Part shown: piece by piece, positions 49 to 17,413 of the stretch
How the letters are laid out: each line of letters begins with the position of its first letter
How positions within the stretch are numbered: position 1 is the stretch's first letter
Assembly (NCBI GenBank): GCA_036271555.1
Contig: DATBAK010000082.1
Span: 1 to 57,690 of the forward strand
Direction of reading: 5' to 3'
DNA length: 57,690 nt
DNA from: Acidimicrobiia bacterium
GTDB taxonomy: Bacteria > Actinomycetota > Acidimicrobiia > IMCC26256 > PALSA-610
Notes under the pieces: model-generated
What the model saw: only the letters and a program-made list of their open reading frames with translations
The model's database searches: none
Told to the model about the DNA's origin: nothing
Translations under genes and position numbers: made by a program

Positions 49-3000
49 ATGGGCACCAGCACCGATCGTTCTGCGGCGAGCAATGCGCGCCCCACGACCG
101 AGCACCAGCGGCGACCACGGAGAGCGCGCCTTCGGGCGCGCTCGACCGCGTTCCTCGCCATGCTGGTGGCATTCGCAGGACCGCTCAGCCTGCTGCGCTG
201 GGCGGAGCCGGCGTTCGCGGCGACCTGCACGTGGCAGGGCTCGACGACTCTCTGGACCACGACCAGCAACTGGAGTTGTGGGCACGCGCCGACGTCGGCC
301 GACGCCGTCGTCATCCAGGGCGTCACGTCGAACACCGCCACCTGGCCGACTCTGAGCGCGAGCACGACGATCGGCAGCCTGTCGATCTCGGGCAGGACGA
401 CGGCGAACGGTTCCAGGGGCGGCCAGCTGACGGTGGCCACAGGTCAATTGCTCACCATCACGGGCGGCCTGACGGTCGCCGGGTCGCAAGACTCGGGCTC
501 CGACAACACGTTCGTCGGGCTCACGTTGTCCGGGACCGCGAACCTCTCGGCGGCCAGCGTCACGTTGAGCACAACCGTGAGCGGTGGCGCGACCGACGCA
601 GAGATCAAAGTCGGCTCGGGAACGATCACGGACTCGGGCGCATGGACGAACAACTCGAGTGACACCGCGGCGAACAGCTTTCAAGGCGGTACCGGCACGG
701 TGAACCTGAGCGGCGCCGCGCAGACGGTGAGCGGCTCGACGACGACGACCTTCAACGACCTCACGCTCTCCGGCAGCGGAACCAAGACGTTCAGCGGCAG
801 CTTCGGTATCAACGGCGACCTGACGAACAACGCGACGCTGAACCAGACGACCGGCACCGCAACCTTCGGCGGCACCAGTGCGCAGACGATCTCGGGCGCA
901 GGCCAGACGTTCTCCGCGTTGACCCTCAACAACGCCGCGGGCGCGAGCTTCTCCGGCGCGACCGGGAACACGACGGTGTCGGGCGCGCTCACCCTCACGA
1001 GCGGCGCCCTCGCGACCGGGAGCAACAAGGTCGTCGCCGGCTCGACCAGCCGCACGGGCGGCTTCGTCAACGGCAACCTCCAGAAGAACCTCGCGACGGG
1101 CTCGTCGACGACGACCTTCGAGGTCGGCAGCGGCACGACCTACGCGCCGGCGACCGTCGTTGCCTCGGGCGTGACGACCGCGGGCGGCCTCACCGTCTCG
1201 TCCACGGGTTCGGAGCACCCGAGCATCGCGAGCTCCGGTCTCGACCCGAACAAGGACGCCAACCGCTACTGGACTCTGACGTCGAACGGCGTCGCGGGCG
1301 GTACCTACAGCCCGACCTTCACCTTCGTCTCCGGTGACCTCGACTCCGGCGTGACGACGTCGAGCTTCCGCGTCGCCAAGTTCGCGGCGAGCGCCTGGGC
1401 GCTCCAGACCGCGGGCACCGCGACCTCGACCACGACGCAGGCGACCGGCGTGAGCGGCTTCGGCGACTTCGCCGTGGGCCAGATCGCGCTCACCCCGCCG
1501 ACCGTCACCGGCATCTCGCCGACCTCGGGTCCGACGGCCGGCGGCACCTCGATCACCATCACCGGCACGAACCTCACCGGCGCGACCGCCGTGAAGTTCG
1601 GCTCGGTCAACGCGACCACGTTCAACGTCACCAACGCGACGACCGCGACCGCGACCGCACCGGCGACGATCACCCCCGGCGCGGTCGACGTGACCGTCAC
1701 CTCCGCCTCGGGTACGAGCGCCACGGGCGCGCCCGACAAGTTCACCTACAACGCGGCGACGCCGACCGTCTCCGCGGTCGCGCCGACCTCGGGTCCGACC
1801 GGCGGCGCCACGTCGGTCACGATCACCGGCACCGGTTTTGTCACCGGCTCGACCGTCGCGTTCGGCGCCAACGCCGGGACCGGCGTCGTCGTCAACTCCG
1901 CGACCTCGATCACCGCGACCGCGCCTGCGGGTGCGGCCGGCGCCGTCGACGTCAAGGTCACGAACTCGGCCGGCACGTCGTCGGCCGTCGCCGGCGACAC
2001 CTACACCTACGTCGCCGCGCCGGCGGTGGCCGCGGTCAACCCGACCGCGGGCCCGACGACCTCGGGCGCTTCGGTCGTGATCACCGGTTCCAACTTCACG
2101 AACGCGAGCTCGGTGAAGTTCGGCTCGACCAGCGCGGTCGGCTTCACCGTGAACAACGACGGCCAGATCACCGCGAGCGCGCCGAATGGCACCGCCGGCA
2201 ACACGGTCGACGTCACGGTCACGACCATCGGCGGCACGTCGGCGACCTCGGCCGCCGACCACTACACCTTCACCGCGCTCCCCGCGGTCTCGAGCGTGAG
2301 CCCGAACCAGGGTCCCGCGACCGGCGGCACGAGCGTCACCATCACCGGCACCAACCTCGCGAACGCGAGCGCGGTCACGTTCAACGGTGTGAACGCGGCG
2401 TCGTTCACCGTGAACTCCGCGACCTCGATCACGGCGACTTCGCCCGTCGGTTCGGCGGGCACGATCGACGTCCGCGTCGCGACCCCGGGCGGCAACTCGA
2501 CCGCCGTGACCGGTGACCACTTCACCTACGTCGCCGCGCCCGCGGTCTCCGCCATCGCGCCGGCGACCGGTCCGACCGGCGGCGGCACGCAGGTCGTCGT
2601 CACGGGTTCCAACTTCTCGAACGCGAGCGCGGTGCAGTTCGGTGGCGTCGCCGCGGCGACGTTCGTCGTGAACTCCGCGACCTCGATCACCGCGTACTCG
2701 CCGGCCGGTCTGGGCACGGTCGACGTCACGGTCACGACCGTCGGCGGCACGTCGACGATCTCCGGCGCCGACCAGTTCGTCTACGACGCCAACGCGTTCC
2801 CGACAGTGAGCTCGGTGTCGCCTTCGGTCGGCACGACCGCAGGCTCGACGTCGGTGACGATCACCGGCACCAACTTCACGACCGGCGCGACCGTCTCCTT
2901 CGGCGGCGTGGACGCGACGATCTTCAACGTCGTGAACGCGACGACGATCACGGCGACCGCGCCCGCGCAGGCGGCCGGTCTCGTCGACGTCACGGTCTCC

Positions 3001-6000
3001 AACTCGATCGCGACGTCGCTGCCGAACGGCAACGACCACTTCACCTACGTCGCTCCGCCGTCGGTCAGCGCCATCTCGCCCGCGGCCGGCTCGTCGGTGG
3101 GCGGCACCGTCGTCACGATCTCGGGCGCCAACTTCACGAGCGCGACCGCGGTGAAGTTCGGCTCGGCGTCGGCGTCGTTCAGTGTCACGAACGACAGCAC
3201 GATCTCCGCGACCGCGCCTGCCGGCACCGTCGACACCGCCGTCGACGTGACCGTCGTGAGCGCGGGCGGCACGTCGTCGACCTCGTCGGCGGACAAGTTC
3301 ACGTACGCCACCACGCCGTCGATCACCAACGCGAGCCCGAGCAGCGGCCCGATGGCCGGCGGCACGGCCGTGACCCTGACCGGTTCGCACTTCTCCGCGG
3401 TGACGAGCGTTCAGTTCGGCTCGACGAGCGTTCCGTTCACCGTCGTGAACCCGACGACCATCACGACGACCACGCCGTCGGGCACGGGCGTCGTCGACAT
3501 CACGGTCACGAACGTGATCACGTCGGTCTCGGGTGTGACGTTCGCCTACGTCGCGCCGCCGATCGTCACGAGCGTCAGCCCGGTCGCGGGCTCAACGGTC
3601 GGTGGGACGAGCGTGACGATCCGCGGCACCGGCTTCGTCGGCGTCAACACCGTCAGCTTCGGCACGACCGGCATCTTCTCGTACAACGTCACCAACTCGA
3701 CGACGATCACGGCGACCGCGCCGACGCACGCCGCGGGTGTGGTCGACGTCACCGTCACGACCGACGACGGCGGTCAGTCGCCGGCGTCGTCCGCCGACCT
3801 GTTCACCTACGCCGCGGCGGTGTCCGGCGTGACCTCCTCGGCGGCCAACGCCACGTACGGTGCCGGCGCGTCGATCCCGGTGCAGGTGACCTTCACCGCG
3901 CCGGTCACGGTCACGGGTACGCCGGTGCTCGCACTGAACTCGGGCGGCTCGGCCAGCTACACGAGCGGCTCGGGCACGAGCACGCTCACGTTCACGTACG
4001 TCGTCGGCGGTGGCCAGAGCTCGAACGACCTCGACGAGTCGTCGGCGAGCGCGCTGACGCTGAGCGGCGGCTCGATCCAGGCCGGCGGTATCGACGCGAT
4101 CGTCACGGTGCCCGCCCCCGGCGCGAGCGGATCGCTCGGCGCGAGCAAGAACATCGTCGTCGACTCGACGCCGCCGACCATCACCAACGTGACGTCGTCC
4201 GCGGCCAACGGCACGTGGGGCACGACGGCCGTCGTCCCGGTCACCGTCACGTTCAGCGAGAACGTGATCGTGAGCGGCGCGACACCGACCTTCGCGCTCA
4301 ACTCGGGCGCCACGGTCAACTACTCGAGCGGCTCGGGCACGAGCACGCTCACGTTCAACTACACGGTGGCGGCCGGTCAGAGCAGCGCGGACCTCGACGC
4401 CACGTCGACGTCGGCACTCACCGGCACGATCAAGGACGGCGCCGGCAACGCGAGCGCGCTCGTGCTCCCGACGCCGGGCGGCGCAGGCTCGCTCGGTGCC
4501 AACAAGGCGATCGTGATCGATACCGCCGCGCACACCTGTGCGTGGAGCGGCGCGTCGAGCACGACGTGGGGCACCGCGGCCAACTGGAACAACTGCGCCA
4601 ACGTCGCACCGCAGCCGATCGACAGTGTGGCGATCCCGTCGACGACGCGTGACCCGATCGCGGTCACGACGACGGTCGCGGGTGTCGACATCCAGAACGG
4701 TGGTCTGCTCACGTCGTCGGGCTCGACGACGCTGAACGACACCGGCGACTTCACGATCGAGTCCGGCGGCGCGTTCACGTTCTCGGCGGGCGCGATCTCG
4801 GTCGGCGGCAACCTCACCGACAACGGAACGCTGACGCCGAGCTCCGGGACGACGGTCACGATGACCGGCGACGGTTCACAGATCGGGGGCTCGGTTTCGT
4901 CGGTGCCGTTCCGCGGCCTCACGATCAACCCGGGTGCGGGCGGCGTCGTCTCCCTCGCGAAGAACATCTCGTTCGCGTCGAGCACCGGCGGCTCGTCGTT
5001 GCTCACGGTCTCGAGTGGCACGCTCGACCTGTCGACGTTCACCGCCAGCGTGACCGGGTCGAGCGGCACCCGTACCTTCACGCTGTCGAGCGGTGCGACC
5101 CTGAAGGTCGGGGGCGCGAGCAACTTCCCGAGCGGCTTCGCCACGAACACGCTCAGCAGCGGCTCGACCGTCGACTACGACGCGGCCGGCAACCAGACGG
5201 TCAGCAACTCGGCGGCCTACGGCACGCTGAAGATCAGCGGCAGCGGCACGAAGACGCTCGCGGGCACGACGTCGGTCGCCGGCAACCTCGACATCGAGGG
5301 CGGCACGCTCGACCTGTCGACCTTCACGGCGAACCGTTCGTCGAACAACAACACGCTGACGGTCGCGAGCGGCGCGGGCCTGAGGATCGGGAGCACCAAC
5401 GGCTTCCCGACGAACTACGCGACGCACTCGCTCGACCCGAGCAGCACCGTCGAGTACGCGGGCACGAACCAGACGGTCGCCGCGGAGACCTACGGCAACC
5501 TGAAGCTCAGTGGCACGAACACGAAGACCGCGGCCGCGGGCACCACGAGCGTGCAGGGTGACTTCACGCTCGCGGGTCCGACGTTCGCCCCCGCGTCGAG
5601 CACGTACGTGTTCAACGGCGCAGCCGCGCAGACGATCAACGGCGCGCCGACGTTCGCGAACCTGACGGTGAACAACGCGGCGGGCCTCACGCTCGCCTCG
5701 GGCAACGTCACGGTCTCGGGCCAGCTCGGTCTGACGGCCGGTGTCGTCGCGACGGGTGCGAACGCGGTCATCGCGAACGGCTCCGTCAGCGGCGGCGGTT
5801 CGGGCAGCTACGTGAACGGCAAGCTGACGCGTGCGATCGCGACGGGCTCGCCGAGCGTCGACTTCGCCATCGGCGACGGCGGCAGCTACACCCCGCTGAC
5901 CGCGGCGTTCGCGTCGGTCTCCGGCGCGGGCTCGCTCACCGCGAGCACGAACGGCGCGGATCACGCGGCGATCGCGTCGAGCGACCTCGACCCGGCGAAC

Positions 6001-9000
6001 GACGCCAACCGCGTCTGGACCCTCACGCCGGGCGGTGCGCTCGGCTTCTCGTCCTACAACGTGACGACGAACTACGCGGCCGGCGACCTCGACTCGGCCG
6101 CGACGCCGAACCTCTTCGTCGCCCGCAACTACAGCGGCGGTGTGTGGAACGCGCCGGCCGGTGGGTCGAACGCGGGAGCGAGCTCGGTGACCGGCAACGG
6201 CTTCACCGGCACCGGTGACTTCGTCGTCGGCGCGCTCTACGACACGGTCGGTCCGGTGACGAGCTCGGTGAGCGCGGCGCCCGCGCTGACGCGATCGGCG
6301 CCGTCGGTGACCGCTCAGGCCGACGACCTCGGCACGCACACGAGCAACGTCGTGGCGGCCGAGTTCTTCATCGACACCGTCGGTGCGAACGGCACGGGCA
6401 CGGCGATGGCCGCGACCGACGGCGCGTTCGACAGCACGTCGGAGGCGCTGAACGCGACGCTCTCCGCTTCGGACTTCTCGGCCCTCGCCGACGGTCAGCA
6501 CACGATCTACGTCCACGCCAAGGACGCCTCGAACAACTGGGGCGACCCGGCATCGACGACCTTCACCAAGGACACCACGGCCCCGTCGATCACGACGCCG
6601 GGCAACCGGACGGCCGAGGCCACCGGTCCCGACGGCGCGCTCGTGAGCTTCACGGCGCCGAGCGCGACCGACGCGATCGACGGCGTCGTCTCGGTGCTCT
6701 GCGGATCGAACAGCGGCGACGCCTTCCCGATCGCCGTGACGACCGTCCACTGCGTGTCGACCGACGCGGCCGGCAACGTGGCGAACGCGAGCTTCGACGT
6801 GACCGTGCAGGACACGACCGCTCCGGTGGTCACGGTTCCGTCGGACCTGACGCGCGAGGCGACCGGTCCCGACGGCGCGACCGCGACGTTCTCGGCGTCG
6901 GCGAGCGATCTCGTCGACGGCAACGCCGACGTCGTGACGTGCACGCCGGACAGTGATTCGGTGTTCGCGCTGGGCACGACGCAGGTCGACTGCTCGGCGA
7001 CGGACGCGGCGAACAACACGGGGAGCGCGAGCTTCAACGTGATCGTGCACGACACGACGGCCCCGGTCGTCTCGGTTCCGTCCGACCTCACGGTCGAGGC
7101 GACCGGCTCCGACGGCGCGACCGCGACGTTCTCGGCGTCGGCGAGCGATCTCGTCGACGGCGGCGTCGACGCCGTGTCGTGCGTTCCGGACAGTGATTCG
7201 GTGTTCGCGCTGGGCACGACGCAGGTCGACTGCGCGGCGACGGACGCGGCGAACAACACCGGGAGCGCGAGCTTCAACGTGCTCGTGCAGGACACGACGG
7301 CGCCGCACATCACGACGCCGGGTGACCTCACTGCCGAGGCGACGAGTGCGGACGGCGCGGCCGTTGCGTACGCGGCTCCGTCGGCGTCGGACGCGGTCGA
7401 CGGCACTGACGTGGTCACGTGCTCGAACGACAGCGGCGATGTGTTCCCGCTCGGTACCACGACGGTCGATTGCTCGACGGTCGACCACGCGGGCAACGAC
7501 ATCTCGACGAGCTTCGACGTGCTGGTGCAGGACACGACGGCGCCGCACATCACGGCGTCGGGTGACGTCACCGCCGAGGCCACGAGCGCCGACGGCGCAG
7601 TCGTGAACTACGACGCCGCGACCGCGACGGACGCGGTCGACGGCACCGACACGGTGACGTGTGTTCCGAACAGTGGTGACGGCTTCCCGCTCGGCACCAC
7701 CGAGGTCGACTGCACCACGACCGACGCCGCCGGCAACGACGCCGCGGCGAGCTTCAACGTGCTGGTGCAGGACACGACGGCGCCGGCGATCACGGTTCCG
7801 TCCGACATCGCGGTCGAGGCGAGCGACGCCAACGGTGCGGTCGTCGACTACACGGCGCCGAGCGCGACGGACGCGGTCGACGGCACGGATCTCGTCAACT
7901 GCTCGAACGACAGTGGCGAGGTGTTCCCGTTGGGCACGACCGAGGTCGACTGCACGGCGACGGACGCGGCCGGCAACATCGGCACCGCGAGCTTCAACGT
8001 GAGCGTCGGCGACACCACACCGCCGGTGCTCACCGTGCCTTCGCACCTCACGCTCGAGGCCACGGGCCCCGACGGCGCGGTCGCGACCTTCACGCCCACC
8101 GCGAGCGACACGGTCGACGGTACGGACGTGGTCACGTGCTCGCCCGTCAGCGGTTCGGTGTTCGCGCTCGGCACGACTGCGGTCGACTGCTCGGCGACGG
8201 ACGCGGCCGGCAACATCGGCACCGCGAGCTTCAACGTGAAGGTGCAGGACACGACGGCGCCGGTCATCACGGTTCCGTCGGACCAGACGGCCGAGGCCAC
8301 GGCTCCCGGCGGCGCGGTCGTGAACTTCACGGCGCCGTCGGCGACCGATGCGGTCGACGGCACCGACACCGTCATCTGTGGTTCGCAGGGCGGCGACGAG
8401 TTCCCGCTCGGCACGACCACGGTCAACTGCCTCACGATCGACGCGGCCGGTAACGGCTCGGCGGCGAGCTTCACGGTGACCGTCCAGGACACGACGGCGC
8501 CGGTCATCACGACGCCGGGCCACGTGACCGCCGAGGCGACGAGCGCCGACGGTGCGACGGTCAACTACACCGCGCCGAGCGCGGCCGACGCGGTCGACGT
8601 GACCGACGTCGTCTCGTGCTCGAACGACAGTGGCGATGTGTTCCCGCTCGGTACGACGACGGTCGATTGCTCGACGGTCGACGCCGCGGGCAACGACAGC
8701 TCGACGAGCTTCACGGTCACGGTCGTCGACACGACGGCGCCGGCGATCACGGTTCCTGACGACATCGCGGTCGAGGCTGCCGATGCTTCCGGTGCGACGG
8801 TCAACTACACGGTGCCGAGCTCGACGGACGCGGTCGACGTGACCGACGTCGTGTCGTGCTCGAACGACAGTGGTGATGTGTTCCCGTTGGGCACGACCGC
8901 GGTCGACTGCTCGGCCACGGACGCGGCCGGCAACACCGGTACCGCAAGCTTCAACGTGAGTGTCGGCGACACCACGCCGCCGGTGGTCACGGTTCCTACC

Positions 9001-12000
9001 GACCGGACCGCCGAGGCGACGAGTGCCGACGGTGCGATCGTCACGTACACCGCGCCTTCCGCGAGCGATGCGGTCGACGGCACCGACGTGGTCGCGTGCT
9101 CGAACGACAGTGGTGATGTGTTCCCGCTCGGCACGACTGCGGTCGACTGCTCGGCGACGGACGCGGCCGGCAACACCGGCACCGCGAGCTTCAACGTCAC
9201 CGTCGAGGACACGACGGCGCCGGTCATCACGACGCCGGGCGACCTCACGGCCGAGGCGACGAGTGCCGATGGCGCGGTCGTCGACTACACGGCTCCGTCG
9301 GCGACCGACGCGGTCGACGGCACCGACACGGTGCTGTGCGGCTCGAACGGCGGCGACGTCTTCCCGATCGGCACGACCGAGGTCGACTGTGTCACCTCGG
9401 ACGCCGCCGGCAACCCGACGCTCGCGCAGTTCAACGTCACGGTGCAGGACACGACGGCGCCGGTCATCACGACGCCGGGCCACGTGACCGCCGAGGCGAC
9501 GAGCGCCGACGGTGCGACGGTCAACTACACCGCGCCTTCCGCGGCCGACGCGGTCGACGTGACCGACGTCGTCTCGTGCTCGAACGACAGTGGCGATGGG
9601 TTCCCGCTCGGTACGACGACGGTGAGCTGCTCGACCGTCGACAACGCGGGCAACGACAGCTCGACGAGCTTCACGGTCACGGTCGTCGACACGACGGCGC
9701 CGGCGATCACGGTTCCGTCGCACCCGACGGCCGAGGCCACGGGTGCTTCCGGTGCGGTCGTCAACTACACCGTGCCGAGCTCGACGGACGCGGTCGACGT
9801 GACCGACGTCGTGTCGTGCTCGAACGACAGTGGTGATGTGTTCCCGATCGGTACGACCGCGGTCGACTGCTCGGCGACGGACGCGGCCGGCAACATCGGC
9901 ACCGCGAGCTTCAACGTGAGTGTCGGCGACACCACGCCGCCGGTGGTCACGGTTCCTACGGACCGGACCGCGGAGGCGACGGGTGCGAGCGGTGCGGTCG
10001 TCAACTACACCGCCCCGAGCGCGACCGACGACGTCGACGGCACCGACATCGTCACGTGCAGCAACGACAGTGGTGACGGGTTCGCCATCGGTACGACCGA
10101 GGTCGACTGCTCGGCGACGGACGCGGCCGGCAACACCGGTACCGCGAGCTTCAACGTCACCGTCGACGACACGACGGCTCCGGTCGTCTCGGTTCCGTCG
10201 GACGTGACGGTCGAGGCGACGAGTGCGAACGGTGCGACCGTGAACTACGCGGCCGCGAGCGCGACCGACATCGTCGACGGCACCGACATCGTCACGTGCA
10301 GCAACGACAGTGGTGACGGGTTCGCCGTCGGCACGACCGAGGTCGACTGCTCGGCGACGGACGCGGCCGGCAACACCGGCACGGCGAGCTTCAACGTCAC
10401 GGTCGAGGACACGACCGCGCCTGTCATCACGACGCCGGGCAACCTCACCGCCGAGGCGACGAGCGCCGACGGTGCGGTCGTCGACTACACCGCTCCGAGT
10501 GCGGCCGACGCGGTCGACGGCACCGACACGGTGTTGTGCGGCTCGAACCCGGGTGACGGGTTCCCGCTCGGCGCGACCACGGTCAACTGCATCACGATCG
10601 ACGCCGCCGGCAACGACGCCGCGGCGAGCTTCACGGTCACGGTGCACGACACGACGGCGCCGCACATCACGACGCCGGGCAACCTCACTGCCGAGGCGAC
10701 GAGCGCCGACGGTGCGGTCGTCGACTACACCGCGCCGTCGGCGACCGACGCGGTCGACGGCACCGACGCCGTCACCTGCTCGAACGACAGCGGCGACGGC
10801 TTCCCGCTCGGCACCACCACGGTGAGCTGCGCGACGGTCGACAACGCGGGTAACGACGCTTCGACGAGCTTCACCGTCACGGTCGGCGACGCGACGGCGC
10901 CGGTCGTCACGGTTCCGTCGCACCAGGCGGCCGAGGCGACGGGCGCATCGGGTTCGGTGGTGACCTTCACCGCTCCGTCGGCGAGCGACGCGGTCGACGG
11001 CACCGACGTGGTCACGTGCTCGAACAACAGTGGTGATGTGTTCCCGATCGGTACGACCGAGGTCGACTGCTCGGCGACGGACGCGGCCGGCAACACCGGT
11101 ACCGCGAGCTTCACGGTCACGGTCGGCGACGCGACGGCTCCGGTCGTCACGGTTCCGTCCGACCAGGCCGCGGAGGCGACGGGTGCGAGCGGTGCGGTCG
11201 TCAACTACACCGCCCCGACCGCGACCGACACCGTCGACGGCAGCGACGTCGTCGCCTGCTCGAAGAACAGTGGCGACGCGTTCCCGCTCGGGACGACGAC
11301 CGTCAACTGCACGACGTCGGACGCGGCCGGCAACCACGCCAACGCGAGCTTCCACGTGACCGTGCAGGACACGACGGCACCGCACATCACGGTGCCGGCG
11401 AACCAGACGGTCGAGGCGAGCGGTGGCCTGGGCTCGAGCGTCGGCTTCCCGACCCCGACCGCGACCGACCTCGTCGACGGCACCGACCCGGTGCTGTGCG
11501 GCTCGACGAGCGGCGGCGGCTTCCCGATGGGAACCACCACGGTCAACTGCAGCTCGACCGACGCGGCCGGAAACACGAGCCACGCGAGCTTCACCGTCAC
11601 CGTGCAGGACACGACGGCACCGCACATCACGGTGCCGGCGAACCAGAACGTCGCGGCGACGAGTGCCTCGGGTGCGGTGGTCAACTACACCGCTCCGTCG
11701 GCGACCGACGCGGTCGACGGCACAGACGCAGTGACCTGCGGCCACAACAGCGGCGACACCTTCCCGATCGGCACGACGACCGTCAACTGCTCCTCGACGG
11801 ACGCGCACGGCAACACGGGCACGGCGAGCTTCACGGTGACCGTGAACAACGTGGTCGTGACCACGCCGTCGCTGACGTTCACGTCGGCTCCGCAGACGGT
11901 CGGTGCGACGCTTTCGACGAAGACCATCACGGTCCAGCGCCTGTCGGGCGCGGGTGTCGCGCAGACGTCGGGCGCCCTCGTGGTGCACCTGTCGTCGTCG

Positions 12001-13407
12001 GCGGCGAGCGGTACGTTCCGCAACAGCCTCGACACGACCACGATCACGACGGCGACGATCGCCAACGGTGCGAGCACGGTGACGGTCCGCTACCGCGACT
12101 CGCAGCCGGGCTCGCCGACCATCACGGCCTCGGTCGCCGGTTACACCTCGGCGACGCAGGGCGTGACGGTCATGACGCCGAAGCTCGTGTTCACGACGTC
12201 GGCGCAGTCGATGGCACCGGGTGCGACTTCCGGTGTGATGACCGTGCAGCGGCAGGCCTACGACGGCACGCCGATGACGTCGGGTGCGATCGCGATCCGC
12301 ATGGCGAGCTCCGCGGGCACCGGCTCGTTCCGGAACTCGGCGAACACGGGGACGATCACGATGGTGACGATCTCCGACGGTCAGAGCTCCGGCAGCTTCC
12401 GGTACCACGACACCGCGGCGGGCACGCCGACGATCACGGTGACCAACGGCATCTACACGCCGGCGACGCAGACCGTGACGATCGCAGTGCCTCCGGCGCT
12501 GGTGTTCACGACGGCGGCGATGACGACGGCACCGAGCGTGTCGACGGGCCCGATCACGATCCAGCGCCGTACTTCGGGCGGCACGCCGATCACGACCGGC
12601 TCGCTCACGGTGAGCCTGGCGAAGTCGGCATCGAGCGGTTCGTTCCGCAACGCCGGCGACAGCGCGGCGATCACGTCGGTCACGATCGCCAACGGCTCGA
12701 GCTCGGTGAGCTTCCGCTACCGCGACAGCGCAGTCGGGTCGCCGAAGATCACCGTGTCGGCGAGCGGTTACTCGTCGGCGTCGCAGACCGAGACGATCAA
12801 GCTCATGCCCAAGCTCGTGTTCACCACGACGCAGAAGGTGCCGGCGCCGAACGCGACGTCGGGTGCGATCACGATCCGTCGCCAGTCGTCGAGCGGTTCG
12901 GCGCAGACGTCGGGTTCGCTCACGGTGCAGCTCCACACCAGCTCGACCACGGGTCAGTTCGTGAGCGCCACGACCAACGCGATCATCACCACGGTGACGA
13001 TCCCGTCGGGCGCGAGCACGGCGAGCTTCCGCTACCGGGACAGCGCGTCCGGTGTGCCGACCATCACGGTCAGCGCAACGGGCTACGTGTCGGCGGGCCA
13101 GGTGGAGCGGATCGACGCGTCGCCGACGATCTCCGGACTGTCGGCGTCGTACACGACGGCTCGCAACGCCGCGAAGACGATCAGCTTCACGGTCGGCGAC
13201 ATCGACCAGGGCGCGAACGCGGTGACGCTGAGCGGCTCCTCGTCGAACTCGTCGATCGTGCAGTCGATCAGCTTCAGCGGCTCGGGCTCGGCCCGTTCGA
13301 TCAAGCTCACGCCCAAGGCGGGCAAGAGCGGCACGGTGACGATCACCGTGACGGCGAGCGACGGCTTCGTCACGACGACGAAGACGTTCACCCTCAAGGT
13401 CGGCTGA
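49..13407 (+). CDS. Giant secreted multidomain surface protein (IPT/TIG + HYR repeats)
   Basis: This 4452-residue protein starts at ATG with a purine-rich GAAGAGG stretch ahead. Residues 1-58 form an Arg-rich, long signal peptide ending AFA-AT. Next come a beta-rich region opening CTWQGSTTLW (60-480), nine IPT/TIG domains (about 483-1256), two domains sharing the pattern SSAANxTxG (about 1258-1495), a second copy of the opening region beginning CAWSGASSTTW (about 1500-2065), 22 HYR domains of 80 residues (about 2178-3938), four repeats of about 105 residues starting PxLxFTTxxxxxAP (about 3940-4355) and a final Ig/cadherin-like domain. HYR and TIG domains are extracellular beta-sandwiches used in adhesion. 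There is no LPxTG motif or C-terminal membrane segment, so it is either released or held by an unknown contact. Adhesin or S-layer-like matrix component is inference. It is followed by a strong terminator and appears monocistronic. Confidence 0.9.
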   Translation: MGTSTDRSAASNARPTTEHQRRPRRARLRARSTAFLAMLVAFAGPLSLLRWAEPAFAATCTWQGSTTLWTTTSNWSCGHAPTSADAVVIQGVTSNTATWPTLSASTTIGSLSISGRTTANGSRGGQLTVATGQLLTITGGLTVAGSQDSGSDNTFVGLTLSGTANLSAASVTLSTTVSGGATDAEIKVGSGTITDSGAWTNNSSDTAANSFQGGTGTVNLSGAAQTVSGSTTTTFNDLTLSGSGTKTFSGSFGINGDLTNNATLNQTTGTATFGGTSAQTISGAGQTFSALTLNNAAGASFSGATGNTTVSGALTLTSGALATGSNKVVAGSTSRTGGFVNGNLQKNLATGSSTTTFEVGSGTTYAPATVVASGVTTAGGLTVSSTGSEHPSIASSGLDPNKDANRYWTLTSNGVAGGTYSPTFTFVSGDLDSGVTTSSFRVAKFAASAWALQTAGTATSTTTQATGVSGFGDFAVGQIALTPPTVTGISPTSGPTAGGTSITITGTNLTGATAVKFGSVNATTFNVTNATTATATAPATITPGAVDVTVTSASGTSATGAPDKFTYNAATPTVSAVAPTSGPTGGATSVTITGTGFVTGSTVAFGANAGTGVVVNSATSITATAPAGAAGAVDVKVTNSAGTSSAVAGDTYTYVAAPAVAAVNPTAGPTTSGASVVITGSNFTNASSVKFGSTSAVGFTVNNDGQITASAPNGTAGNTVDVTVTTIGGTSATSAADHYTFTALPAVSSVSPNQGPATGGTSVTITGTNLANASAVTFNGVNAASFTVNSATSITATSPVGSAGTIDVRVATPGGNSTAVTGDHFTYVAAPAVSAIAPATGPTGGGTQVVVTGSNFSNASAVQFGGVAAATFVVNSATSITAYSPAGLGTVDVTVTTVGGTSTISGADQFVYDANAFPTVSSVSPSVGTTAGSTSVTITGTNFTTGATVSFGGVDATIFNVVNATTITATAPAQAAGLVDVTVSNSIATSLPNGNDHFTYVAPPSVSAISPAAGSSVGGTVVTISGANFTSATAVKFGSASASFSVTNDSTISATAPAGTVDTAVDVTVVSAGGTSSTSSADKFTYATTPSITNASPSSGPMAGGTAVTLTGSHFSAVTSVQFGSTSVPFTVVNPTTITTTTPSGTGVVDITVTNVITSVSGVTFAYVAPPIVTSVSPVAGSTVGGTSVTIRGTGFVGVNTVSFGTTGIFSYNVTNSTTITATAPTHAAGVVDVTVTTDDGGQSPASSADLFTYAAAVSGVTSSAANATYGAGASIPVQVTFTAPVTVTGTPVLALNSGGSASYTSGSGTSTLTFTYVVGGGQSSNDLDESSASALTLSGGSIQAGGIDAIVTVPAPGASGSLGASKNIVVDSTPPTITNVTSSAANGTWGTTAVVPVTVTFSENVIVSGATPTFALNSGATVNYSSGSGTSTLTFNYTVAAGQSSADLDATSTSALTGTIKDGAGNASALVLPTPGGAGSLGANKAIVIDTAAHTCAWSGASSTTWGTAANWNNCANVAPQPIDSVAIPSTTRDPIAVTTTVAGVDIQNGGLLTSSGSTTLNDTGDFTIESGGAFTFSAGAISVGGNLTDNGTLTPSSGTTVTMTGDGSQIGGSVSSVPFRGLTINPGAGGVVSLAKNISFASSTGGSSLLTVSSGTLDLSTFTASVTGSSGTRTFTLSSGATLKVGGASNFPSGFATNTLSSGSTVDYDAAGNQTVSNSAAYGTLKISGSGTKTLAGTTSVAGNLDIEGGTLDLSTFTANRSSNNNTLTVASGAGLRIGSTNGFPTNYATHSLDPSSTVEYAGTNQTVAAETYGNLKLSGTNTKTAAAGTTSVQGDFTLAGPTFAPASSTYVFNGAAAQTINGAPTFANLTVNNAAGLTLASGNVTVSGQLGLTAGVVATGANAVIANGSVSGGGSGSYVNGKLTRAIATGSPSVDFAIGDGGSYTPLTAAFASVSGAGSLTASTNGADHAAIASSDLDPANDANRVWTLTPGGALGFSSYNVTTNYAAGDLDSAATPNLFVARNYSGGVWNAPAGGSNAGASSVTGNGFTGTGDFVVGALYDTVGPVTSSVSAAPALTRSAPSVTAQADDLGTHTSNVVAAEFFIDTVGANGTGTAMAATDGAFDSTSEALNATLSASDFSALADGQHTIYVHAKDASNNWGDPASTTFTKDTTAPSITTPGNRTAEATGPDGALVSFTAPSATDAIDGVVSVLCGSNSGDAFPIAVTTVHCVSTDAAGNVANASFDVTVQDTTAPVVTVPSDLTREATGPDGATATFSASASDLVDGNADVVTCTPDSDSVFALGTTQVDCSATDAANNTGSASFNVIVHDTTAPVVSVPSDLTVEATGSDGATATFSASASDLVDGGVDAVSCVPDSDSVFALGTTQVDCAATDAANNTGSASFNVLVQDTTAPHITTPGDLTAEATSADGAAVAYAAPSASDAVDGTDVVTCSNDSGDVFPLGTTTVDCSTVDHAGNDISTSFDVLVQDTTAPHITASGDVTAEATSADGAVVNYDAATATDAVDGTDTVTCVPNSGDGFPLGTTEVDCTTTDAAGNDAAASFNVLVQDTTAPAITVPSDIAVEASDANGAVVDYTAPSATDAVDGTDLVNCSNDSGEVFPLGTTEVDCTATDAAGNIGTASFNVSVGDTTPPVLTVPSHLTLEATGPDGAVATFTPTASDTVDGTDVVTCSPVSGSVFALGTTAVDCSATDAAGNIGTASFNVKVQDTTAPVITVPSDQTAEATAPGGAVVNFTAPSATDAVDGTDTVICGSQGGDEFPLGTTTVNCLTIDAAGNGSAASFTVTVQDTTAPVITTPGHVTAEATSADGATVNYTAPSAADAVDVTDVVSCSNDSGDVFPLGTTTVDCSTVDAAGNDSSTSFTVTVVDTTAPAITVPDDIAVEAADASGATVNYTVPSSTDAVDVTDVVSCSNDSGDVFPLGTTAVDCSATDAAGNTGTASFNVSVGDTTPPVVTVPTDRTAEATSADGAIVTYTAPSASDAVDGTDVVACSNDSGDVFPLGTTAVDCSATDAAGNTGTASFNVTVEDTTAPVITTPGDLTAEATSADGAVVDYTAPSATDAVDGTDTVLCGSNGGDVFPIGTTEVDCVTSDAAGNPTLAQFNVTVQDTTAPVITTPGHVTAEATSADGATVNYTAPSAADAVDVTDVVSCSNDSGDGFPLGTTTVSCSTVDNAGNDSSTSFTVTVVDTTAPAITVPSHPTAEATGASGAVVNYTVPSSTDAVDVTDVVSCSNDSGDVFPIGTTAVDCSATDAAGNIGTASFNVSVGDTTPPVVTVPTDRTAEATGASGAVVNYTAPSATDDVDGTDIVTCSNDSGDGFAIGTTEVDCSATDAAGNTGTASFNVTVDDTTAPVVSVPSDVTVEATSANGATVNYAAASATDIVDGTDIVTCSNDSGDGFAVGTTEVDCSATDAAGNTGTASFNVTVEDTTAPVITTPGNLTAEATSADGAVVDYTAPSAADAVDGTDTVLCGSNPGDGFPLGATTVNCITIDAAGNDAAASFTVTVHDTTAPHITTPGNLTAEATSADGAVVDYTAPSATDAVDGTDAVTCSNDSGDGFPLGTTTVSCATVDNAGNDASTSFTVTVGDATAPVVTVPSHQAAEATGASGSVVTFTAPSASDAVDGTDVVTCSNNSGDVFPIGTTEVDCSATDAAGNTGTASFTVTVGDATAPVVTVPSDQAAEATGASGAVVNYTAPTATDTVDGSDVVACSKNSGDAFPLGTTTVNCTTSDAAGNHANASFHVTVQDTTAPHITVPANQTVEASGGLGSSVGFPTPTATDLVDGTDPVLCGSTSGGGFPMGTTTVNCSSTDAAGNTSHASFTVTVQDTTAPHITVPANQNVAATSASGAVVNYTAPSATDAVDGTDAVTCGHNSGDTFPIGTTTVNCSSTDAHGNTGTASFTVTVNNVVVTTPSLTFTSAPQTVGATLSTKTITVQRLSGAGVAQTSGALVVHLSSSAASGTFRNSLDTTTITTATIANGASTVTVRYRDSQPGSPTITASVAGYTSATQGVTVMTPKLVFTTSAQSMAPGATSGVMTVQRQAYDGTPMTSGAIAIRMASSAGTGSFRNSANTGTITMVTISDGQSSGSFRYHDTAAGTPTITVTNGIYTPATQTVTIAVPPALVFTTAAMTTAPSVSTGPITIQRRTSGGTPITTGSLTVSLAKSASSGSFRNAGDSAAITSVTIANGSSSVSFRYRDSAVGSPKITVSASGYSSASQTETIKLMPKLVFTTTQKVPAPNATSGAITIRRQSSSGSAQTSGSLTVQLHTSSTTGQFVSATTNAIITTVTIPSGASTASFRYRDSASGVPTITVSATGYVSAGQVERIDASPTISGLSASYTTARNAAKTISFTVGDIDQGANAVTLSGSSSNSSIVQSISFSGSGSARSIKLTPKAGKSGTVTITVTASDGFVTTTKTFTLKVG
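1498..3816 (+). repeat. Nine tandem IPT/TIG domain repeats
   Basis: Nine in-frame units of about 86 codons, each opening with a pattern such as PxVxxxSPxxGPxxGGTxVTITG and closing with TFxY. Units begin near bases 1498, 1762, 2020, 2278, 2536, 2797, 3055, 3313 and 3556. They diverge more than the HYR units, so this array looks older. Confidence 0.85.
6574..11860 (+). repeat. 22 tandem HYR-domain repeats (240-bp period)
   Basis: Twenty-two units of almost exactly 240 bp encode HYR domains with the shared frame APxITxPxxxTAEAT, ATDAVDGTDxVTC and DAAGNxxxASFxVxVxDTT. Each unit has two cysteines (in VxC and VxC), which can form one disulfide per domain. A higher-order period of 960 bp is visible: units 9-11 (from about 8500) and 13-15 (from about 9460) are almost identical, which indicates a recent segmental duplication. 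Confidence 0.9.
11866..13113 (+). repeat. Four tandem ~105-residue C-terminal repeats
   Basis: Four related units begin LTFTSAPQTV, LVFTTSAQSM, LVFTTAAMTT and LVFTTTQKVP and each ends with a SFRYRDSxxGxPxITV-type strand. They look like an Ig-like beta-sandwich of the surface-protein type, but I cannot name the family. Confidence 0.75.
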
Positions 13408-13519: not shown

Positions 13520-15394
13520 GTGACGCGGTCACGCAGTGCTCAACCGACCGCCGCACCGCGTCGATTGGAGAGCGTGCGAACCGCGCGGCGCTGCCTCGTC
13601 GGGTCGGCGCTCCTCGCGCTGATCTCCTTCGCGTCCGTCGCGCCCGCGAGTGCCGCGGGACCGTTGACGCTCGCCGCGCATCCGACGGTTCCCGCGTTCC
13701 AGCCGTCGTGGGCGACGAACACGCGTCAGTCCGACGCGCCCGATCCCGCCGTCGTGCGGGTCGGCTCGACGTACTACGCCTACACGACCGGCACGATGTG
13801 GGGAAACCACATCGGTGTTCTCGTGTCGTCGCAACCGAGCTCGGGCTGGCACACGCTGCAGAACCGGTCGTTCGGATCGTCGGCGTTCGGCTCGCTCCCC
13901 GCGGGCACGTCGGTGCGTCCGTGGCAAATCAACGGTTCGCAGCACGCGCCGGGAGTGTTCGCGTTCGCCGGCAAGTACGTGATGTTCTACACGGCGCAAA
14001 CCGTGTCCGGGCACGGCGGTCACTACTGCCTCTCGGTCGCGACCGCGAGCGCACCGGCGGGTCCGTTCAGCGATACGTCGAGCGGACCGCTGCTCTGTCG
14101 CGACAGCGAGGGCGGCGTCATCGACCCGCAGCCGTTCGTCGACGCGGCGGGCAACCCATGGCTCTACTTCAAGACCTACGACGACGTGAACCATGGATCG
14201 ACGCCCGCGCGCATCTACGCGGTCGCGCTGTCGGGGAACGGTCAGCAACCGATCGGTACCGCGCACATCGTGCTCGCGCAGGAGAGCCTGACGAGCCCGT
14301 TCGAGACCGTCGAGAACCCGCAGATGATCCGCGCCGGCGGGCGCTACGTGCTCGTCTTCTCGCGCGGGCTCTACACGTCGAACGCGTACCGCATGGGCGA
14401 CGCGCTCTGCGACGGTCCCGCGGGGCCGTGTCACGAGTCGACGTCCTCGCTCGTCACCACGTACCCGAACGCGGGTGGGCCCGGCGGCGGCACCGCGTTC
14501 GCCGACGCGTCCGGACGACTCTGGCTCACCTACGCGGCCTGGAACACGGGATGCACGCAGTACCGCGTCGACAACTCGTGCGCGCGCCGGCTCTTCGTCG
14601 CGCCGCTGAACGCGACCGGACCGATCGTGTGCCACGCAGTGAACCCGGTGCGCGGCTACCGCATGGTCGCATCCGACGGCGGCATCTTCGTGTTCGGCAC
14701 CGAGCAGTTCTGCGGCAGCACCGGCGACATCTCGCTCAACTCGCCGATTGTCGGCATGGCCCGCACGCCGAGCAGCGGCGGCTACTGGTTGGTCGCGTCC
14801 GACGGCGGGATCTTCTCGTTCGGTGATGCGCACTTCTACGGCTCGACGGGTGCGATCCATCTGAACCAGCCGATCGTCGGCATGACCGCGTCACCCTCGG
14901 GACACGGCTACTGGTTCGTGGCGCGCGACGGCGGGATCTTCTCGTTCGGTGATGCGCACTTCTACGGCTCGACCGGCGCGATCCATCTCAACTCGCCGAT
15001 CGTCGGCATGGCCGCGACGCGTTCCGGCCACGGCTACTGGTTGGTCGCGGCCGACGGCGGTGTGTTCTCGTTCGGCGACGCGCACTTCTTCGGTTCGACG
15101 GGTGCCATCAAGTTGAACCAGCCGATCGTGGGGATGGCGCCGTCGCCGACGGGTCACGGGTACTGGTTCGTGGCGCGCGACGGTGGGATCTTCTCGTTCG
15201 GCGACGCGCGCTTCTTCGGTTCGACCGGCGCGATCAAGTTGAACCAGCCGATCGTCGGCATGAGCGCGTCGGCGAGTGGTCACGGCTACTGGTTCGTCGC
15301 GGCCGACGGTGGGATCTTCTCGTTCGGCGACGCGCACTTCTACGGCTCGACCGGCAGCGTGCACCTCGTCCGCCCCATCGTCGGGATCGCGTAG
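13520..15394 (+). CDS. Secreted GH43-like beta-propeller protein with SFGDA repeats
   Basis: A 624-residue exported protein. The GTG start gives an Arg-rich signal peptide ending APASAA (about residue 46); a second GTG at 13574 would also keep it. Residues 65-370 resemble a family-43 five-bladed propeller: APDPAVV supplies the usual first Asp, GVIDPQPFVD the second acid and VENPQMI the Glu. The rest (about 375-624) is six copies of a 41-residue repeat with core DGGIFSFGDAHFYGSTG and NQPIVGM, widespread in exported actinobacterial proteins and probably forming a second propeller. It probably binds or trims extracellular glycans such as arabinans; the substrate cannot be told from sequence. It lies 112 bases after the giant gene but beyond a terminator, so it likely has its own promoter. 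Confidence 0.8.
   Translation: MTRSRSAQPTAAPRRLESVRTARRCLVGSALLALISFASVAPASAAGPLTLAAHPTVPAFQPSWATNTRQSDAPDPAVVRVGSTYYAYTTGTMWGNHIGVLVSSQPSSGWHTLQNRSFGSSAFGSLPAGTSVRPWQINGSQHAPGVFAFAGKYVMFYTAQTVSGHGGHYCLSVATASAPAGPFSDTSSGPLLCRDSEGGVIDPQPFVDAAGNPWLYFKTYDDVNHGSTPARIYAVALSGNGQQPIGTAHIVLAQESLTSPFETVENPQMIRAGGRYVLVFSRGLYTSNAYRMGDALCDGPAGPCHESTSSLVTTYPNAGGPGGGTAFADASGRLWLTYAAWNTGCTQYRVDNSCARRLFVAPLNATGPIVCHAVNPVRGYRMVASDGGIFVFGTEQFCGSTGDISLNSPIVGMARTPSSGGYWLVASDGGIFSFGDAHFYGSTGAIHLNQPIVGMTASPSGHGYWFVARDGGIFSFGDAHFYGSTGAIHLNSPIVGMAATRSGHGYWLVAADGGVFSFGDAHFFGSTGAIKLNQPIVGMAPSPTGHGYWFVARDGGIFSFGDARFFGSTGAIKLNQPIVGMSASASGHGYWFVAADGGIFSFGDAHFYGSTGSVHLVRPIVGIA
14644..15392 (+). repeat. Six 123-bp SFGDA repeats
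   Basis: Six in-frame units of 41 codons, core GYWxVAxDGGIFSFGDAxF followed by GSTGAIxLNxPIVGM. The first unit is degenerate (DGGIFVFGTEQFCGSTG); units 2-6 are near-identical, including at synonymous positions, which suggests recent amplification or gene conversion. Confidence 0.9.
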
Positions 15395-15408: not shown

Positions 15409-15497
15409 GCCGGCAGCGAGCGCGACCAGAGTTATGGAGCGGCGAGCGTCCGCGGGTCGGGTATCCCGGCCGGCAGCGAGCGCGACCAGAGTTATGG
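15409..15497. repeat. 29-bp direct repeat, 60-bp period, between convergent genes
   Basis: A 29-bp sequence beginning GCCGGCAGCGAGCGCGACCA and ending GAGTTATGG occurs exactly twice, at 15409-15437 and 15469-15497, offset by 60 bases; flanking bases GCG-GCGAGC are also similar. The second copy contains the TAA stop (15492-15494) of the minus-strand redoxin gene. No terminator hairpin is obvious between these convergent genes. Confidence 0.75.
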
Positions 15498-16508
15498 CGC
15501 CGCGAGCCCGTGGTAGGGCTGGCCGGCCGCCTGCCATTCCTCGTAGAGCGCGAAGAACGTGGCGCCGAACGGATCGTCACCGATCAGCGGCAGCAGCGCG
15601 CGGCGAATGGTGAAGTCGTGCGGTGCGCGCTCCGCGGCGAGCGCGAAGTGTCGTTGCGCGGTGTCGGTGTCGCCCGCGCGGCGCGCGTGCACGGCGACTC
15701 GGAAGTGCAGGCGCGCGAGCACCTCGTCGGGGCTGAGGTCGTCGACCGGCGGCTCGGCATCGGCCGGGATCGAACCCGTGTGCACCCACGCGCGCACGAG
15801 GTCGAGGTGGGGCGCGGCCTCGACGCCGGTGAAGTCCTTGAACAGGTCGTTCGAGAAGGCGACCCCGTTCGGTCGCACGATGTGATCGTCCTCGTCGATC
15901 CAGATCACCGTCGGCACGTTGCTGATCGCGAACAGCTCGCTCACGACGTGCTCGGGATCGAGCAGCACGGGGTACGTGATGTTCTCGGTGAACGGCCGGA
16001 CGTCGTCAGCCGACTCGTCGAGCGCGACCGCGACGATGGTGAACCCGTCGGCGGCGAGCTCGTCGTGCAGGTCCTGCCAACCTGGCAGGTCGTAGCGGCA
16101 GCCTCACCAGGAGGCGAACGCGACGAGCAGGCGCTTCTTGCCGTGCCACTGCGCGAAATCGTGCTCGACGCCGTCGAGATCGCGCAGACGAAAGTCGGGT
16201 ACGCGGCGCGCTCGGAGCGCGTCGGAGCGCGTCTCCGCGTCGAGCGCGATCGCCGCGAGACCGGCGGACGCGTCGACGACCGCGGGCCGGCCGAGCGCGT
16301 CCGCGACCGCGGCGAGGTCGAGCCGATCACCGACGAGCAGACGTTCCCGGTCGCGCACGGGCACGCACACGTCGTCGCGGCAGAGGCCCTCGGGCTTCCA
16401 CTCCCACCCGATCGCGGCGTGCAGCGCGTCGGCGTCGAGCAGCAGGCGATCGCCGTCGGCGGTCGCGTCGACCGCGACGGCTTCGTCGGTCACGATCGTC
16501 GCGCGCAT
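15492..16508 (-). CDS. Probable selenocysteine-containing thioredoxin-fold redoxin (in-frame TGA)
   Basis: Read as one gene, this encodes 338 residues with an in-frame TGA at codon 135 (16104-16106). Residues before it end KKRLLVAFASW and those after begin GCRYDLPGWQ, so TGA falls exactly where redoxins of the AhpC/ResA type carry the N-terminal active-site Cys (ASWCGC). The same frame continues through a normal thioredoxin fold: FTIVAVALDES, TYPVLLDP and cis-Pro-type NVPTVIWID. An N-terminal domain holds a GLCRDDVCVPV cysteine pair and the C-terminus looks helical/TPR-like. A SECIS-like hairpin follows the TGA. The ATG at 16508 overlaps the stop of the upstream nucleosidase gene (TGATG), indicating translational coupling. 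It probably reduces disulfides or peroxides in the cytoplasm; no signal peptide is seen. The alternative is a pseudogene or a Cys-to-stop sequence error. Confidence 0.75.
16071..16091 (-). promoter_or_regulatory. bSECIS-like hairpin after the in-frame TGA
   Basis: On the minus strand the RNA forms a 6-bp stem CCUGCC/GGCAGG with loop AGGUU, extended by an A/A mismatch and a G-C pair. The loop starts 21 bases after the UGA and has G at its second position. This meets the described bacterial SECIS pattern (a UGA-to-loop distance of about 16-37 bases, a small loop with an early G) and resembles the GGU loop of E. coli fdhF. Confidence 0.6.
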
Positions 16509-17230
16509 CACGCGCTCGCCTTCGCGGCCGCGGCGATCGCGGCGTCGGCCGCGGCCTCCGTCGCGCGCAGCGCGCCCTTCGCGAGACGCGCCATACGCGG
16601 GATGCGTTGCGGGTGCAGCAGGAAGTAGCGGAGGACCGCGATCGGGTTCGGTGTGCCGTCCTGGTTGCTGAGACGGAAGATCTCTTCGTCGACACTGCCG
16701 TCGGTCGCGCGGTCGCTGATCGTGCGGAACACCGACCACGGGATGCCGTGCTGCTCGCACACCTGCGCGATCGCGGCCGTCTCCATGTCGAGTGACACGA
16801 CGCCTTGTGCGCGAAGTCCCGCGATGAGCTCGAGATCGGTGTGGAGCTCGTTCGTCGTCCACATCTTTCCGTGGGGTGTGCCGTCGGCGAGGGCCTCGGG
16901 TCGGTACTCGGAACCGGTCGCGCCGTCGACGACGACCTCGGGCAACACGAGCGTGCCGATCGGCGTCTCGTTCTCGACCGCGCCCGTGATGCCGAAGACG
17001 ACGACGCGCTCCGCGTCGACCGCGCCGAGCAACCGTTCCGTCGCGTGCGCCGCGAGGTCGGTGCCCATGCCGGTCGCGATCGCGACGACGTCACGTCCGG
17101 CGAAGGATCCCGCGCGCACCTCGACCGGGCCGATCGCCGTCTTGCGCAGTGCCAGCTTCTTCGCGAGCGGCTTGAGCTCCATCGGCATCGCGCACACGAA
17201 AGCGATCGGACGCGCGGCCGTGGGTTCCAC
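16508..17230 (-). CDS. Nucleoside phosphorylase/nucleosidase-family protein
   Basis: The 240-residue product from GTG 17230 fits the PNP/UDP phosphorylase and MTA/SAH nucleosidase superfamily in length and motifs: PIAFVCAMPMELKPL at the N-terminus (where nucleosidases bind substrate and water-activating Glu), ATGMGTDLAA, VFGITGAVE, and the hallmark VSLDMETAAIAQVCE followed by FRTISDRA with the catalytic Asp. Upstream in-frame starts to 17353 are possible but the added residues look non-coding. Substrate may be methylthioadenosine, S-adenosylhomocysteine or another purine nucleoside. It is the first gene of a two-gene unit with the TGA-containing redoxin, whose ATG overlaps its stop. I see no direct biochemical reason for this pairing. 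Confidence 0.75.
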   Translation of the reverse strand: MEPTAARPIAFVCAMPMELKPLAKKLALRKTAIGPVEVRAGSFAGRDVVAIATGMGTDLAAHATERLLGAVDAERVVVFGITGAVENETPIGTLVLPEVVVDGATGSEYRPEALADGTPHGKMWTTNELHTDLELIAGLRAQGVVSLDMETAAIAQVCEQHGIPWSVFRTISDRATDGSVDEEIFRLSNQDGTPNPIAVLRYFLLHPQRIPRMARLAKGALRATEAAADAAIAAAAKASA

Positions 17231-17254
17231 GCCGCGGATGATACGAGCAGACTC

Positions 17255-17413
17255 GTGACCGTGATCAAGATCGTCTTCTGCCTCCGCCGCCGCGCCGAGA
17301 TGACGCGGGAGGAGTTCCAGACCTACTGGCGCGAGCAACGCGCGCCGCTGCATCGACCTCGCCCGATCACCCCTCTTCCTCGCCGAGGAGCACGTGGTCG
17401 TGCCCTGACGTGA
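17255..17413 (+). pseudogene. EthD-domain gene remnant with internal deletion
   Basis: From GTG 17261 the frame reads IKIVFCLRRRAEMTREEFQ-TYWREQRAPL, the standard N-terminus of EthD-family dimeric alpha/beta-barrel proteins. The next bases, in another frame, read DLARSPLFLAEEHVVVP and stop at 17408, which is the standard EthD C-terminus. About 55-60 middle residues are missing and the two ends are joined out of frame, so the gene is broken. The intact frame itself runs on to 17413 with a nonsense tail. Confidence 0.7.

Follow-up and report, generated by a model that had tools for sequence, protein, structure and literature searches.

Does the stop codon that interrupts a redoxin gene at its active site stand for selenocysteine (Sec), or does it mark a broken gene? 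The question is raised by a locus in the window, that is, the whole 57,690-nucleotide stretch of an Acidimicrobiia genome analyzed here, for which the original prediction had proposed a new selenoprotein with Sec in place of the first active-site Cys and had given no strand. When re-read from the sequence, the gene occupies positions 15492..16508 on the minus strand, to which all coordinates within the gene given below refer, and consists of 338 codons, from an ATG at 16508-16506 to a TAA stop at 15494-15492. As had been proposed, its sole interruption is an in-frame TGA at codon 135 (16104..16106), within ASW-U-GCR; translated with TGA as U, the context reads FASW-U-GCRYDLPGW. In alignments with PDB sequences, this codon coincides with the first active-site Cys of the ResA/TlpA CxxC motif. 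The GC content by codon position does not change across the TGA (third-position GC is 0.90 before and 0.92 after it, and the other codon positions are also alike), which indicates that coding runs on through the TGA and agrees with the proposal that coding sequence lies on either side. Furthermore, comparison with homologues showed that orthologues span residues 1-338 with a single TGA at the matching codon.

We surveyed orthologues in 395 genomes of the host's class, about 65 of which carry a long orthologue, and read 66 orthologous sequences. Position 135 is encoded by TGA in 51/66 and by TGC or TGT in 15/66, with no other residue at this position, as the original prediction had anticipated for homologues, a pattern far outside what chance would produce; the orthologues are interrelated, so these counts do not correspond to independent events. 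Across the 62 full-length sequences, residues C43, C48, W134, G136, C137, W144, N197 and P199 are invariant, including the putative resolving residue of the U-G-C motif, Cys137 (TGC, 16098..16100; 62/62). Candidates for a second Sec residue did not hold up: in L067, L072 and L087, which had been scored as containing two TGA codons, the trimmed match holds only one, and the extra TGA of L088 lies near the C-terminal end and is probably the normal stop.

TGC and TGT differ from TGA by one base, and some orthologues do encode Cys here, as would befit a Cys-type redoxin turned into a pseudogene by a recent nonsense mutation, or merely misread through a sequencing error. However, the equivalent codon is TGA in 51 orthologues, which come from many families and whose genomes nearly always contain selA, the coding statistics are unaltered 3' of it, and the hairpin described below is conserved. 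Because the TGA is conserved, this explanation is refuted in practice, and we assign it a negligible probability. An open frame with a TGA does not by itself name the residue inserted, and UGA might instead be read as Trp or another amino acid, through a recoded stop or a suppressor. Yet the only alternative residue at position 135 is Cys, never Trp, and the genome combines Sec machinery with a bSECIS-type hairpin 3' of the TGA; decoding as a residue other than Sec is thus exceedingly improbable. Both explanations are rejected in view of the conserved TGA/Cys exchange. We infer with very high confidence, from sequence comparisons, that the gene encodes a genuine selenoprotein with Sec inserted at codon 135.

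The hairpin, CCTGCC-AGGTT-GGCAGG, was located by folding at 16073..16089, with the loop at 16079-16083 and the core stem formed by 16084-16088 and 16074-16078. It starts 15 bases 3' of the TGA, as originally described, and the distance from the TGA to the loop is 20 nt; the stem can reach 7 bp if the loop is closed down to a GGT triloop. Folding energies are -11.5 kcal/mol for the 25-mer and -13.3 kcal/mol for the TGA with the following 42 nt. The limits given for bSECIS elements are a loop of 3-9 nt, a stem of 4-16 bp, a G in loop positions 1-2, a spacing of 16-37 nt from the UGA and a minimum free energy of -7.5 kcal/mol or lower (PMC13188914), and the hairpin falls within all of them (5-nt loop AGGTT, 6-7 bp, 20 nt, -13.3 kcal/mol).

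Conservation of the hairpin follows the identity of codon 135, being retained mainly in the TGA forms. All five core pairs are formed in 50/51 TGA forms versus 8/15 Cys forms (Fisher 6e-5), and GU is present in the loop of 51/51 versus 6/15 (1.4e-7), P values that ignore shared ancestry and serve as a guide only. Among the TGA forms, the loops are limited to AGGTT, CGGGT, GGTCT and CGTGT, and the same four loops are found in the sister clade of NF041054-type proteins. The Pro and Gly/Val codons within the hairpin are linked in fixed pairs (CCC-GGG, CCA-GGT, CCG-GTC and CCC-GTG), and the Gly codon GGC is used at the hairpin site in 0/34 TGA forms, yet accounts for 49% of the Gly codons in those genes. 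We also observed one compensatory stem change, CTTCC/GGAAG, as well as the wobble stems TTGCC/GGCAG and CTGCC/GGCGG. Linkage of this kind would hardly be expected unless the RNA itself were under selection, and it points to nucleotide-level constraint on the hairpin. By the proposed mechanism, SelB, GTP and Sec-tRNA(Sec) would bind the hairpin 3' of the UGA, and selenocysteine would be placed at residue 135.

The machinery for this step is encoded in the genome from which the window derives (4.68 Mb in 104 contigs, completeness 95.8%), in agreement with the prediction that the organism decodes Sec. We detected selA (465 bits), selB (281), selD (408) and tRNA-Sec (63), each above the curated cut-off; selA adjoins selB on contig C19, which also carries tRNA-Sec, and selD is located on contig C85. 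Since the tRNA-Sec model also passed its cut-off in 5/14 control genomes, SelA and SelB carry more weight than tRNA-Sec. The same genome harbors a second selenoprotein gene (contig C4:70271-71341; L095, L020), a member of NF041054, with an in-frame TGA and a matching hairpin with the loop CGGGT.

Across the orthologue set, selA was found in 46 of the 49 TGA-form genomes tested, the window genome being additional to these, and in 1/15 Cys-form genomes. The three TGA-form genomes in which selA was not detected (G185, G170 and G362) are 70-79% complete. Neither selA nor selB was found in G428, a genome of another class that is 94% complete and carries the TGA form (C121:9620-10588; L105), perhaps as a result of misbinning. 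Conversely, the single Cys-form genome with selA, G158, has a complete selA-selB pair on contig C418. Its selA scores 603 bits, compared with about 440-480 in relatives of its order, which suggests contamination or transfer, the alternative being a lineage that retained the machinery.

The direction of the exchange was assessed on a quick tree of 90 sequences from which the Sec/Cys column was masked; the sister-clade sequences were hand-picked from the hit list and the outgroup consisted of paralogues of both TGA and Cys type. Window-type and NF041054-type proteins separate with 100% SH-aLRT support. At least 7 Sec/Cys switches are needed on this tree, all of which can be explained as Sec-to-Cys. 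With the root placed at the split between the two clades, a Sec root with losses only requires 7 changes, compared with 21 for a Cys root with gains only, and this difference in cost favors repeated Sec-to-Cys conversion by parsimony. Lineages that lost the Sec machinery would have retained the enzyme with Cys at position 135. The Sec-to-Cys direction has been termed rare in prokaryotes in a 2026 review (PMC13188914).

What the selenoprotein does is suggested by its domain organization. A structure predicted by AlphaFold2 from 46 orthologues (mean pLDDT 95.9) contains an N-terminal domain, a TlpA/ResA-type thioredoxin-fold domain and a C-terminal helical domain. The thioredoxin-fold domain (about residues 101-238; 15795..16208), supported by Pfam, the predicted structure and the match to ResA, includes a candidate cis-Pro, P199 (15912-15914), within an invariant N-V-P. 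The C-terminal domain (about residues 239-338; 15495..15794), delimited by the secondary structure of the model, is weakly TPR-like, its match to TPR_14 being below the cut-off. The N-terminal 98 residues (16215..16508) form a confidently predicted separate domain (pLDDT 93.4) that carries the invariant pair C43-X4-C48 (C43, 16380-16382; C48, 16365-16367). In a search of 60 genomes of the class, this domain was found solely in front of UGC redoxins. A sequence search of the PDB found no relative of it, and the best structural matches were too weak to be informative (Foldseek E 0.74; VIA-align Z 5.4). No signal peptide or membrane anchor was visible upon inspection of the sequence by eye, so that the protein is most likely soluble and cytosolic.

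The best domain hits are Pfam AhpC-TSA (PF00578; 49.8 bits versus a cut-off of 26) and Redoxin, and the original name of the family was 'Prx-like' (PMC2398784). Both observations would suit a peroxidase of the peroxiredoxin or GPx-like kind, in which Sec135 reduces peroxides and Cys137 resolves, and this is the main rival with respect to activity. The structural and sequence comparisons speak against it: the closest folds to the core of the model are ResA, DsbE and TlpA (for ResA and DsbE, Z of about 14-15 and rmsd of 2.1-2.3 over 134-138 aligned residues), with BCP/PrxQ types ranking lower, and in sequence alignments U135 pairs with the first Cys of the ResA/DsbE CxxC and C137 with the second, the spacer being one residue shorter. 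Accordingly, we consider a peroxidase unlikely and thiol-disulfide reductase the somewhat better-founded activity.

As such a reductase, the product would be a soluble TlpA/ResA-like oxidoreductase of the thioredoxin fold with its CxxC shortened by one residue to Sec-Gly-Cys, the unusual pair that the original prediction had pointed out. Sec135 would act as the nucleophile attacking a substrate disulfide or, less likely, a peroxide, and Cys137 would resolve the intermediate as a selenenyl-sulfide, which the C43-X4-C48 pair may re-reduce, or from which it may hand electrons on. We tentatively propose a two-center selenoenzyme, in which the N-terminal CX4C hairpin is a built-in electron donor to Sec-Gly-Cys, in a family where Sec gave way to Cys several times independently as the Sec machinery was lost; this composite view is somewhat less likely to be right than wrong.

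In the genomic neighborhood, no conserved operon partner was found in the 30 loci read. Immediately upstream, at 16508..17353 on the minus strand, lies a gene for a nucleosidase of the phosphorylase superfamily (PF01048), whose TGA stop overlaps the ATG of the selenoprotein gene (TGATG). This nucleosidase gene was not found next to the orthologue in any of 29 further loci inspected, and is probably functionally unrelated to the selenoprotein. On the other side, between the selenoprotein gene and a convergent gene, there is a 26-bp exact direct repeat (15412-15437 and 15472-15497, 60 bp apart), the second copy of which spans the stop codon of the selenoprotein gene; no further copy was found in the genome at up to 2 mismatches. 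Positions 13520-15394 of the plus strand encode a glycosyl hydrolase family 43 protein carrying an array of GYWxVAxDGGIFSFGDAxFxGS-type repeats at its C-terminus, and a plus-strand open frame of 4452 codons extends over 49-13407.

The locus has a practical consequence, since automatic annotation that ends the gene at the TGA would drop the active site together with the C-terminal part of the protein. The tidy Sec/Cys split that tracks loss of the machinery provides a natural test case for the retention or loss of Sec in bacteria, and Sec-X-Cys, one residue shorter than CxxC, represents a redox design open to testing. Two features set the case apart from a routine one: the recurrent switching from Sec to Cys and the Cys-bearing domain at the N-terminus.

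How, then, does the protein relate to known families? Sec at codon 135 and the Sec-Gly-Cys pair passed the computational tests (machinery, Cys/TGA homologues and fit to the bSECIS model), and the hairpin and the Sec-decoding host stood with them; the claim that did not stand is novelty of kind. Selenoproteins termed 'Prx-like (UGC-containing)', 46 sequences in total, were reported in 2008 from the Global Ocean Sampling survey (PMC2398784), and two reviews include UGC-type selenoproteins in their lists (PMC9312934, PMC13188914), the latter under the name 'UGC-containing TlpA disulfide reductase family protein'. The window protein shows the features of this UGC Prx/TlpA-like type, namely PF00578 / cd02966 with Sec-Gly-Cys, and UGC recurs in 51 orthologues; the PF00578 domain, the UGC motif and the existence of Cys homologues are shared with the Global Ocean Sampling proteins, a likeness drawn by description. 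ResA, DsbE (CcmG) and TlpA have the core fold and the position of the active site in common with the window protein, but they possess CxxC, whereas the active site is UxC or CxC in every orthologue; the window protein further differs from them in its extra N- and C-terminal domains and in showing no visible signal peptide or membrane anchor.

The sister family is already curated in NCBIfam as NF041054, 'ResA-like WAxxUGC motif-containing protein' (WAxxUGC_long), with a cut-off of 300 bits. All 46 window-type proteins match this model (best E 4.6e-77), but the window protein, with 206 bits over residues 24-221, remains below the cut-off, whereas the copy on contig C4 of the same genome, with 539 bits, is a clear member. 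The two kinds share Sec-Gly-Cys, an N-terminal domain with a Cys pair, a TlpA-type core, a helical C-terminus and the hairpin loops. They differ in the spacing of the Cys pair, which is CX4C in the window protein and CX8C in the NF041054 member of its genome, with 36% identity between the two proteins, and they belong to separate clades (100% SH-aLRT). Judged from these comparisons, in which the Global Ocean Sampling sequences entered by description, the window-type clade is a new subfamily of the known UGC kind for which there is no dedicated curated model, and it extends the UGC-type selenoproteins by a well-supported group in which Sec and Cys forms both occur.
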